Below are positions 24,900 to 63,161 of a stretch of DNA of 64,000 nt, in pieces. The stretch comes from Chitinophagales bacterium (lineage in GTDB: Bacteria; Bacteroidota; Bacteroidia; Chitinophagales; JADIYW01), in the NCBI GenBank assembly GCA_023957245.1, contig JAMLHJ010000007.1:62001-126000 (forward strand). The letters are read 5' to 3'. The notes under the pieces are model-generated. The model did no database searches and had not been told where the DNA came from. It saw nothing but the letters and a program-made list of their open reading frames with translations. Position 1 is the stretch's first letter, and each line of letters starts with the position of its first letter. The position numbers and the translations under genes were made by a program.

Positions 24900-25427
24900 T
24901 TACTTGTCTTCTTTGTCAGTGAACCAAGAAGCGTATTTGACGTAATTATTGGCGATGCGCATATTTTGGTCTTTGAAAGTTTCAGGTGATAGTGTTTTAA
25001 CTTTTTTTGCAGGTATTCCAGCCCATATTGTTCCAGCTTCAATATGAGTATTTTCCAAAACTACAGCACCAGCTGCAATTAATGCATTTTTTTCGATATA
25101 ACAATTGTCCATCACAATGGCTCCCATTCCTATCAATACATTTTCTTCAATTGTACAGCCATGAACTATGGCATTATGACCAATTGAAACATTGTCACCA
25201 ATGATGGTTTTTGTTTTTTCAAAGGTGCAATGTATGACAACATTGTCTTGAATATTGACTTTGTTGCCTATTATTATTGAATTGACATCGCCTCTTACGA
25301 CAGCATTGAACCAAATACTGCAATCATTACCCATGGACACTTCTCCTACTATTGTTGCGTTGGGTGCTATAAAACAATTATTACCGAATGAAGGTGTATA
25401 ATCTCGACAAGGTAGGATATAAGGCAT
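24900..25427 (-). CDS. Gamma-carbonic-anhydrase-like left-handed beta-helix protein
   Basis: The Met at 25427 gives 175 residues, the family length; the frame extends 50 codons further upstream through AT-rich intergenic DNA, which I reject. The hexapeptide repeats of a left-handed beta helix are clear (NATIVGEV, NKVNIQDN, GDNVSIGHN, EENVLIGMG). The His ligands match: VVIHCTF, GHNAIVHGC. The family includes gamma carbonic anhydrases and YrdA/PaaY-type proteins, and activity cannot be told from sequence. The stop is 6 bases past the convergent alpha-galactosidase-like stop. Confidence 0.9.
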   Translation of the reverse strand: MPYILPCRDYTPSFGNNCFIAPNATIVGEVSMGNDCSIWFNAVVRGDVNSIIIGNKVNIQDNVVIHCTFEKTKTIIGDNVSIGHNAIVHGCTIEENVLIGMGAIVMDNCYIEKNALIAAGAVVLENTHIEAGTIWAGIPAKKVKTLSPETFKDQNMRIANNYVKYASWFTDKEDK

Positions 25428-25762
25428 AAAAATAATTTTTGAATTGGCAAAGTTAATGAAATAATGAAGTATTGTGGAGATGTGAAAATGTGAGAGGTAA
25501 AATGTAAGATGAAATTTGTTGGTGTTTAAGTTTGCCTCGTAGAGGCTATCGCTTGGTAAAAATAAATAATCAACCAACCATTGCTCCGTAGGTGCTACCC
25601 TAAATAATAATATTGTCTAAATTTTACCACAAAGTTTCACAATGAAGCACAGAGCTTCACAAAGACTTTTCTTCGAGTTTTTTGTGAAATAATTTATTTT
25701 AAAATTAACCGCAAAGTACACTAAGTTTTACGCAAAGTACACGGAGTGATAGGTAGTATTAT
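25428..25762. other. Intergenic region with dispersed repeat fragments
   Basis: No gene is supported here. 25535-25600 contains GGTA and CTCCGTAGGTGCTACC-type blocks that resemble a repeat seen widely in Bacteroidota intergenic DNA. 25624-25668 is an ACCACAAAG/CTTCACAAAG-type string. 25706-25744 is a 39-base unit whose reverse complement recurs at 32198-32236. Confidence 0.55.
25706..25744 (+). repeat. 39-bp CGCAAAG unit, inverted copy at 32198-32236
   Basis: The unit contains CCGCAAAG and ACGCAAAGTACACGG. The reverse complement of 32198-32236 matches it at 37 of 39 positions. It sits 18 bases before palindromic element A and may be its outer part. Confidence 0.7.
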
Positions 25763-25950
25763 ACGTTGCGAATGCACCCTGCACCATAGATTTTGATGCT
25801 GGGCACCCACTATACGAAGAAAGTGTAATTTCTTCAACTGTTTGAGACGAAGTCGAGTTTTGAAGAAATAGCTTTCAAGTATTTAGTGGGTCAGCGAAAA
25901 ATCAGGTGCGATTCTTTTGCATACTTTTTCTTCTAAAGAAAAGTATGAAG
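25763..25950 (+). repeat. Palindromic repeat element, copy A
   Basis: This 188-bp element has the same length as copy B at 62974-63161 and differs from it by 7 substitutions, with no indel that I can find. It folds into one large imperfect hairpin spanning about 25770-25924, with nested arms CCCACTA/TAGTGGG and ATTTCTTCAA/TTGAAGAAAT. A second smaller hairpin (CATACTTT/AAGTATG) follows. There is no open frame and no transposase nearby. A non-autonomous mobile element or a structured RNA are both possible. Confidence 0.85.
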
Positions 25951-60873: not shown

Positions 60874-62409
60874 TTAAAATAGATCATCCCCATTTGCTTC
60901 TTTATCATTTGGCATACTATCCATTTTGGATTGTACCGTGATATATCCTTCTTGAGAATTGTTGGAATGTTTATGTGATGAACCATGATGGATTGACATT
61001 GGATTCCAATCTTTGAACTTAGTGAATTCATTGATAAACTTCAATTTGACAGTTCCGATTGAACCATGTCTATGCTTCAGTACAATAACTTCCGCCATGC
61101 TTTTAGTAGATTCGCCAGTTGAATCGACTTCTAAACCATAATATTCAGGACGATACAATGCTAATACCATGTCCGCATCTTGCTCTATTGCTCCAGATTC
61201 TCTCAAATCGGACAATTGAGGTCTTTTATCTCCAGTACGAGTCTCTACAGCACGGCTTAATTGAGAAAGAGCAATTACTGGAATGTTGAGTTCTTTTGCT
61301 ATTCCTTTTAATGCTCTTGAAATTGCACTGATTTCTTGTTCACGTGTACTTCCTTTTCCCTCAGATGTGCCACTCATCAATTGTAAATAGTCTATCATGA
61401 CCATTTGAATATCGTGAGTACTTTTTAATCTTCTACATTGTGCTCTGAATTCAAATATGTTTAATCCAGGAGTATCATTTATGAATATAGGAGCTCTTGA
61501 AAGTCTTTCTACTTTTTTACTCATTTCTGCCCATTCATAATCATTGAGTTTCCCATGGTGGATTTTTTCTGCCTCTATCTCAACTTCAGACGAAATAATC
61601 CTTTTCACTAATTGGGTAGCATTCATCTCTAAAGAGAAAATAGCAACAGCCATATTGTGATCTACAGCGGCAGTACGTGCCATATTTAAAACGAAAGCAG
61701 TTTTACCCATAGCAGGTCGTGCTGCCACAATAATCAAATCTGACCTCTGCCAACCTGAAGTCATGCTATCAAGATTTGTAAATCCAGAAGGAACTCCCGT
61801 AAGTCCATCTGGTTTGTTTCTGATAGAGTCAATTTCTTTCAGTGTGTCTGCCAAAAGATTTTCCATTGAAAGAGAACCTCTTTTAAGATTTTGTTCTGCT
61901 ACTGAAAAGATATCTTTTTCTGCTTTATCCAATAAAACTAATACGTCAGTTGTGTCTTCGTATGCATCTTTAATAATAGTATTGGAAATTTCTATCAACT
62001 TACGTTGGATATATTTTTGAATGACAATTCTAGAATGGTATTCAATGTTTGCAGAAGATGCAACTTTATTGGTCAATTCAGAAAGATAATATGCGCCACC
62101 TACAACTTCCAAGCTTCCATTCTTTCTCAGTTGTTGAGCTACGGTCAATAAATCGACTGGTTTTGATGCTTCAAATAATTCTTTGATAGCATTGAAAATT
62201 GTACGATGTGCATCAACATAAAAAATTTCTGGTTTGATGATATCTATTACTTCATTGAGTGCCTCTTTATCTATCAGCAATGCTCCGATGACAGCTTCTT
62301 CCAAATCACGAGCTTGAGGAGGGATTTTTCCAAACATTATTGAAGAAAAATCTTGCGCGATTGTCTTTGTCGCACTTAAACCTTTTTTAGCATATTGTGA
62401 AGTATCCAT
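60874..62409 (-). CDS. dnaB: Replicative DNA helicase
   Basis: The 511-residue hexameric helicase unwinds DNA at replication forks. The N-terminal domain (about 30-135) has QARDLEEAVIGALLIDKEALNEV. The RecA-like motor has Walker A ARPAMGKTAF (near residue 235), Walker B MVMIDYLQLM and the R-finger block LSQLSRAVETR. The C-terminal tail (NGDDLF) is acidic and probably used for protein contacts. No intein or insertion is visible. It is convergent with thrB. On the minus strand, TATCTTTA (near-match to TAnnTTTG) stands upstream of the start. Confidence 0.95.
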   Translation of the reverse strand: MDTSQYAKKGLSATKTIAQDFSSIMFGKIPPQARDLEEAVIGALLIDKEALNEVIDIIKPEIFYVDAHRTIFNAIKELFEASKPVDLLTVAQQLRKNGSLEVVGGAYYLSELTNKVASSANIEYHSRIVIQKYIQRKLIEISNTIIKDAYEDTTDVLVLLDKAEKDIFSVAEQNLKRGSLSMENLLADTLKEIDSIRNKPDGLTGVPSGFTNLDSMTSGWQRSDLIIVAARPAMGKTAFVLNMARTAAVDHNMAVAIFSLEMNATQLVKRIISSEVEIEAEKIHHGKLNDYEWAEMSKKVERLSRAPIFINDTPGLNIFEFRAQCRRLKSTHDIQMVMIDYLQLMSGTSEGKGSTREQEISAISRALKGIAKELNIPVIALSQLSRAVETRTGDKRPQLSDLRESGAIEQDADMVLALYRPEYYGLEVDSTGESTKSMAEVIVLKHRHGSIGTVKLKFINEFTKFKDWNPMSIHHGSSHKHSNNSQEGYITVQSKMDSMPNDKEANGDDLF

Positions 62410-62973: not shown

Positions 62974-63161
62974 ACGTTGCGTATGCGTCCTGCACCATAG
63001 ATTTTGGTGCTGGGTACCCACTATACGAAGAAAGCGTAATTTCTTCAACTGTTTGAGACGAAGTCGAGTTTTGAAGAAATAGCTTTCAAGTATTTAGTGG
63101 GTCAGCGAAAAATCCGGTGCGATTCTTTTGCATACTTTTTCTTCTAAAGAAAAGTATGAAG
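62974..63161 (+). repeat. Palindromic repeat element, copy B
   Basis: Same 188-bp element as 25763-25950, with 7 substitutions. Outer ends GTATGC (62981-62986) and GCATAC (63130-63135), middle arms CCCACTA (63017-63023) and TAGTGGG (63095-63101), and inner arms ATTTCTTCAA (63039-63048) and TTGAAGAAAT (63071-63080) nest into one large hairpin. A second, smaller hairpin follows at about 63131-63158. There is no coding capacity. Confidence 0.85.

Follow-up and report, generated by a model that had tools for sequence, protein, structure and literature searches.

The window, the whole stretch of 64,000 nucleotides of a Chitinophagales genome that was analyzed, carries two copies of a palindromic repeat, at 25763-25950 and 62974-63161, each 188 bp long and separated from the other by exactly 7 substitutions. 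Both copies are intergenic, with genes for a hexapeptide transferase (24903-25577) and DnaB (60877-62409) identified by Pfam among their neighbors and no Pfam match for the remaining two neighboring genes. An earlier note, made from the letters alone, had described an intergenic pair of equal length differing by seven substitutions, each copy folding into one very large hairpin plus a smaller second hairpin, with no transposase in or beside either copy and no frame running across; sequence comparison and folding (25780-25910 and 25920-25947) bear this description out. The features of the two copies are as follows, where R1 is a covariance model of the hairpin tip:

25763..25950, + strand: copy 1 of the repeat, 188-bp subtype (R1 model match at 25822-25875, 61.4 bits)
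25780..25910, + strand: copy 1, large imperfect hairpin (RNA and single-stranded DNA folds; three-species consensus)
25834..25863, + strand: copy 1, conserved apex TCAACTGTTTGAG-mini-stem-GAGTTTTGA (same apex in at least seven phyla)
25920..25947, + strand: copy 1, 3' AT-rich hairpin CATACTTTTTCTTCTAAAGAAAAGTATG (fold)
62974..63161, + strand: copy 2 of the repeat, 7 substitutions relative to copy 1 (R1 match at 63033-63086, 60.7 bits)
62991..63121, + strand: copy 2, large imperfect hairpin (in register with copy 1)
63045..63074, + strand: copy 2, conserved apex (R1 model)
63131..63158, + strand: copy 2, 3' AT-rich hairpin (in register with copy 1)

Folded as RNA, the 188-nt strand reaches -60.2 kcal/mol versus -39.3 +/- 3.9 kcal/mol for shuffled sequences (z = -5.4), with 0 of 200 shuffles giving an equally good fold, and folded as single-stranded DNA it gives z = -5.9. 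The 3' module in the window lineage is mainly a simple hairpin, with a 5-bp extra helix (a weak pseudoknot) possible.

The earlier note had left it to a count of copies in the full genome to tell wider spread from local duplication, with only two copies in a single assembly speaking for the latter. The window genome (3.09 Mb) holds 26 copies spanning essentially the whole unit and about 12 partial ones, and local duplication of the two copies is thereby ruled out. These 26 full-length copies comprise 15 of the 188-bp type and 11 of a ~207-bp type, in which the GATTC before the 3' hairpin is swapped for TGGTCACTGAGTTTGTCGAAGTGC, a REP-like piece; the 11 copies that are exactly 188 bp long share 94-99% mutual identity. 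No ORF of at least 110 aa spans or contains a copy (0 of 26), and 13 of the 26 lie between convergent genes. The window-genome copies sit in flanks that are patchworks of other repeats, in which neither exact ends nor a target duplication could be made out.

Several further observations concern the arrangement of these copies. They (L001-L026) are embedded among intergenic repeats, namely CAAAGTTCACNAAG tracts, the CGTC-REP-like GATTGCTTCGTTCCTCGCAATGACG, GTCATTCTGAAAGAATC, and CTTCGACAAACTCAGTGACC, and REP-like sequences adjoin many of them. Same-strand pairs of copies lie 407 and 442 bp apart (C21:199015-199608 and C17:192174-192821), so the tandem duplication took in a larger unit, flank included. 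Two contigs end inside the element, C21 with its left 42 bp (C21:214341-214382) and C4 with its right 41 bp (C4:1-41), and the gap between these ends may hold a larger or unresolved copy. Three truncated copies (L027-L029, at C1:194855, C7:44168, and C6:36043) share a common breakpoint at position 111 with the same sequence after it, as if this truncated derivative had spread on its own. Both flanks of one copy (L013) match those of a copy in the congener G001 (L042), so that two species carry the element at the same intergenic site, reflecting either an old insertion or a repeated target.

Diverged copies are present in two congeners, at 84% and 73% identity over the matched part. In an alignment of the three species the consensus fold contains 57 pairs, 21 of which have changed on both sides and still pair. 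Among the three species, stem segments have been swapped wholesale for unrelated complementary ones (GATTTT/AAAATC; GATATC/GATATC; GTGATTGAAT/ATTCAATCAC), while the tip TCTTCAACTGTYTGAR...GAGTTTTGAAGA remains constant.

This apex, TCAACTGTTTGAR-mini-stem-GAGTTTTGA, recurs at the tip of long intergenic hairpins with unrelated stems. The motif has the form ACTGTYTGAR...GAGTTT and is asymmetric and unpaired, placed around a small variable stem at the hairpin tip. We scanned one genome per species from 84,980 species for the exact pattern TCAACTGTTTGAR-N2-14-GAGTTTTGA and obtained at least 114 stretches, versus about 1 chance match calculated from the length of the pattern. One match, L125 in Nodosilinea, falls within a long ORF and resembles the one expected by chance; the remaining matches that were inspected form long imperfect hairpins tipped by the motif, on stems that have nothing in common between taxa. 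The hosts belong to at least seven phyla (Bacillota, Campylobacterota, 'Deltaproteobacteria', Nitrospirota, Patescibacteria, Fusobacteriota, and Bacteroidota), and those in the scan include Lachnospiraceae, Lutispora, Alkaliphilus, Natronincola, Peptoniphilus, Acidaminococcaceae, Campylobacterales, 'Deltaproteobacteria', Nitrospirae, several Patescibacteria, and Chitinophagales. Copies per genome often number in the tens, and the strict pattern itself occurs 1-36 times per genome in 28 carriers, with 0 matches for the reversed control. In viral contigs, the strict apex pattern and the 3' module each gave 0 matches and a looser apex pattern gave 6.

In a 30-sequence cross-phylum alignment, 95.1% of stem cells pair, and the covariation score is 0.708, compared to 0.154 for shuffled sequences and at most 0.149 when the pairing partner is slid. 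The 30 sequences were picked by the tip pattern, and a constant tip among them is therefore no evidence in itself. The tip is confirmed by copies not selected with that pattern, found through the R1 model and through a BLAST match to the 3' module. R1 at E <= 1e-4 matched 11 of 249 genomes of the order, with 53 copies in G413 and 21 in G438, two other Chitinophagales, whose copies show single-position changes in the tip (CTGTCTGAG) and are otherwise unchanged there. A BLAST match confined to the 3' module led to plasmids of Ilyobacter polytropus (Fusobacteriota) and Aureibacter (Cytophagales), and both plasmid loci carry the tip just upstream of the module (56.8 bits in Ilyobacter, 51.4 bits in Aureibacter). 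The Ilyobacter plasmid has 9 copies, among which a double change turns TCAAC/GTTTTGA into TCGAC/GTTTCGA.

A second 3' hairpin or pseudoknot has been added in several lineages. In those that include Ilyobacter and Aureibacter it takes the form of an H-type pseudoknot, CCTTGAT...GTTACTTTT...ATCAAGG...AAAAGTAAC, and most members keep complementarity in its two helices, in Bacteroidota as well as Fusobacteriota. Inspection by eye also revealed a further internal loop in several lineages, with GCGTTAAG upstream and TTTAGC downstream. On the Aureibacter plasmid pAT6 (L288:2313-2557), a copy separates cas7d from cas5d in a type I-D cas operon. On the Ilyobacter plasmid pILYOP01 (L287:2075-2181), a repeated palindrome is found beside several copies and scores 34 bits against the archaeal sRNA41, for which the cut-off is 45.

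The ends of the unit can be defined in two related lineages. The 'deltaproteobacterial' complete chromosome CP070673 (5.1 Mb) contains at least 40 units of ~195 bp, 92-97% identical to a common query, that start with CRGGCTGTTGCC and finish with GGCAACAGCCYG as inverted terminal repeats. In this chromosome and related genomes, an exact 4-bp direct repeat flanks 21 of 39 such delta units and a 5-bp repeat flanks none (0/39), whereas mispaired flanks agree at 4 bp in 3.7% of cases; the target is itself palindromic (GTYAA-N3-TTNA-N3-TTGAC). In G413 the unit is ~416 bp long with the ends GGGTTATTCAG...CTGAATATCCC, again terminal inverted repeats, and an exact 6-bp duplication flanks 5 of 17 rows (4 independent sites), with 0 for other lengths. 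Fixed-length target duplication is the mark of staggered-cut (DDE-type) insertion. Mobility is thus demonstrated directly in the delta and G413 lineages, where the target-site duplications that the earlier note had suggested looking for are present. The spread of a non-autonomous element, which the same note had raised as one of two options, is supported by these duplications together with the 26 full copies in the window genome, their close likeness at 188 bp, and the lack of a transposase in or next to the two window copies. Since the duplication lengths differ (4 versus 6 bp), at least two enzymes or enzyme variants are implied, and a single enzyme is unlikely. In a comparison of empty with occupied sites at the loci analyzed, the matches listed contained only occupied pairs. 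Carriage by phage or plasmid was rejected on the viral-contig counts above and on plasmid searches with the window and delta units, which gave no match.

We found no autonomous partner in the carrier genomes, for which the ends of PF05598 genes, the proximity of Y1_Tnp, and the neighboring genes were examined. An IS5/IS1182-type (PF05598) transposase, the sole transposase family checked for delta ends, was rejected as the parent of the delta units, with the PF05598 transposases in the carriers lacking those ends. No recurrent transposase-like or partner gene family was seen beside the copies.

Rfam 15 returned no family at the element in the window, at 18 other loci, or, at a relaxed threshold, at 14 further loci. 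A match to Flavo-1 reached 15 bits versus a cut-off of 42, which is noise, and a known Rfam RNA is ruled out; a literature search with the letters of the motif gave nothing relevant. The closest known kind is the set of published 'mobile/repeat sequence candidates' (MRSCs; PMC11109978), above all MRSC-65-2. MRSC-65-2 has more than 20,000 representatives in diverse phyla, with one long covarying stem, a UYCCGG repeat, dozens of copies per genome, and sometimes a transposase gene nearby (PMC11109978). MRSCs, MRSC-65-2 among them, share with the palindrome family a single long stem, a copy number in the dozens per genome, presence in many phyla, strong covariation, the lack of a consistent orientation, and a probably selfish nature, and the palindrome family may be an unnamed listing among the motifs of that publication (PMC11109978). 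By description, the two are set apart in that MRSC-65-2 has UYCCGG and is sometimes near a transposase gene, whereas the palindrome family is marked by the apical ACTGTYTGAR/GAGTTT loop, often with a hairpin or pseudoknot on the 3' side, and no transposase gene was seen beside its copies. As read by eye, neither the element nor alignments A1 and A3 contain the UYCCGG repeat.

To our knowledge, the MITE families described so far are taxonomically narrow and derive from one IS; in contrast, the palindrome family carries the same tip across phyla in units whose ends and duplication lengths differ, and we found no parent IS for it. Nevertheless, it shares with MITEs such as Correia, ERIC, and BrickBuilt (PMC10969869) a short length, intergenic position, terminal inverted repeats, target duplications, stable stem-loops, and the lack of an ORF. 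Terminal inverted repeats with target-site duplications of fixed length are found in the delta and G413 lineages, and the family is multi-copy, short, and non-coding, as expected of MITEs. The GTAG- and CGTC-tagged REPs, or REPINs with RAYT (PMC3733652), are likewise palindromic extragenic repeats present in several phyla with some tandem or inverted pairing. REPs measure 20-40 bp and carry, at one end, a GTAG or CGTC tag (PMC3733652), whereas the palindrome units are 188-416 bp long, with an apical motif and with target duplications where ends are defined. By eye, neither tag occurs at the apex or at the defined ends, and the arrangement characteristic of REPs and RAYT, a tagged 20-40 bp hairpin with a RAYT gene flanked by the repeat, was not found. 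Rickettsia palindromic elements are 100-200 bp palindromic repeats with no known mobilizer, and they often lie inside ORFs. Compared by description, they are like the window repeat in size and palindromic form and unlike it in their position, with 0 of 26 copies in ORFs here. A separate observation comes from a 7.5-kb stretch (L068) carrying two Clostridiales-1 RNAs (RF01699; L068:4415-4568 and L068:7326-7464), which have a TCATACTTTTTCATG...CATGAAAAAGTATGA hairpin like the 3' module of the palindrome family; RF01699, an 'sRNA' in Rfam, may likewise be a dispersed repeat. The mobile covarying hairpin is a kind already published, and the cross-phylum tip of the palindrome family is not shared by MITEs or tagged REPs.

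We consider it fairly probable that the palindrome is a non-autonomous, MITE-like mobile element moved in trans, with the folded core as a conserved recognition element. A transposase encoded elsewhere would copy or move short intergenic units within the genome, each built on a core consisting of the long imperfect hairpin, its ACTGTYTGAR...GAGTTT tip, and, in several lineages, the 3' hairpin or pseudoknot. The folded core, as single-stranded DNA or RNA, would be recognized by the mobilizing machinery or a host partner, and on the simplest reading an intact fold would be required for mobilization. Recognition of the core would account for the retention of tip and pairing in every lineage despite the variation in stems, ends, and duplication length, and the recognizer is probably something conserved, judging by these patterns. 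Against this reading stand the missing autonomous partner, the mosaic flanks in the window genome, the differing duplication lengths, and outer arms unlike those of simple cut-and-paste, which does not explain arms that differ between copies and stay complementary.

The main rival is a structured RNA that serves the host, for example by insulating against or antiterminating read-through, in RNase-dependent mRNA processing, or as an sRNA, with several kinds of MITE doing no more than dispersing it. Such an RNA would fit the asymmetric unpaired motif beside the mini-stem, the 3' pseudoknot kept in Bacteroidota and Fusobacteriota, the occurrence of the core in units with differing ends and duplication lengths, and the copy within the cas operon. 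However, three data sets show no strand bias relative to co-directional neighbors (34 versus 39), and this speaks against a cis-acting RNA that works only when read from one side, and tens of near-identical copies are unexpected for a trans-acting one. There is also no constant gene neighbor and no Rfam match, and we regard this rival as unlikely. The earlier note's second option, a structured RNA under selection, stands as far as selection on the folded form is concerned, given the covariation it had proposed to look for, which is present both within the genus and across phyla; the lack of strand bias gives an RNA role no support, and the fold could act as single-stranded DNA. With spread and selection on the fold each supported, the two options are not mutually exclusive.

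The element could also be a REP/BIME-type repeat that REP-associated tyrosine transposases (RAYT, Y1_Tnp) mobilize, being palindromic, intergenic, and multi-copy. Y1_Tnp (RAYT-like) genes occur in 15 of 23 carrier genomes, the window genome has 4 matches, REP-like sequences adjoin many copies, and in Campylobacterales (L077, L107, L115) inverted element pairs lie 160-300 bp apart like REPIN doublets. Yet 8 of the 23 carriers, most of them drafts and some with several copies, have no Y1_Tnp match, and no apex was found within ~1.5 kb of the Y1_Tnp loci examined, so RAYT as a general mover is not supported. The unit is also 5-10 times the length of a REP, and HUH single-strand transposition would not be expected to produce target duplications of 4 and 6 bp, leaving this explanation quite improbable in our view. 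The outer arms bear on another account, in which inverted repeats grow by replication template switching and the pairing and covariation reflect quasi-palindrome correction instead of selection. Locus-specific outer arms of ~10-35 bp are still complementary around the element at several loci (L070, L100, L103, L097, L122, L137), and in Lachnospiraceae, Acidaminococcaceae, and Lutispora they differ between copies yet remain complementary; they look like the product of template-switch correction, or of insertion at the center of existing palindromes. Part of the covariation could therefore arise without selection, but template switching leaves the tip shared across phyla, the dispersed copies, and the target duplications unexplained, and as a full account it is highly improbable.

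Returning to the MITE-like element moved in trans, a broader and more tentative possibility is that it represents a pan-bacterial mobile structured nucleic acid whose folded core (the apex, often with the 3' pseudoknot) is itself recognized in mobilization, with the tip retained in at least seven phyla through the replacement of stems, ends, and duplication lengths. If this is true, transposition would depend on a folded single-stranded DNA or RNA signal and not on terminal repeats alone. The usual view of small palindromic repeats is that they are species-specific debris left by local IS elements; a folded core common to at least seven phyla, with differing ends and duplications, would imply a conserved partner, and the sequence mark and covariance model provide a handle for finding it. 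The family may account for many unannotated intergenic hairpins.
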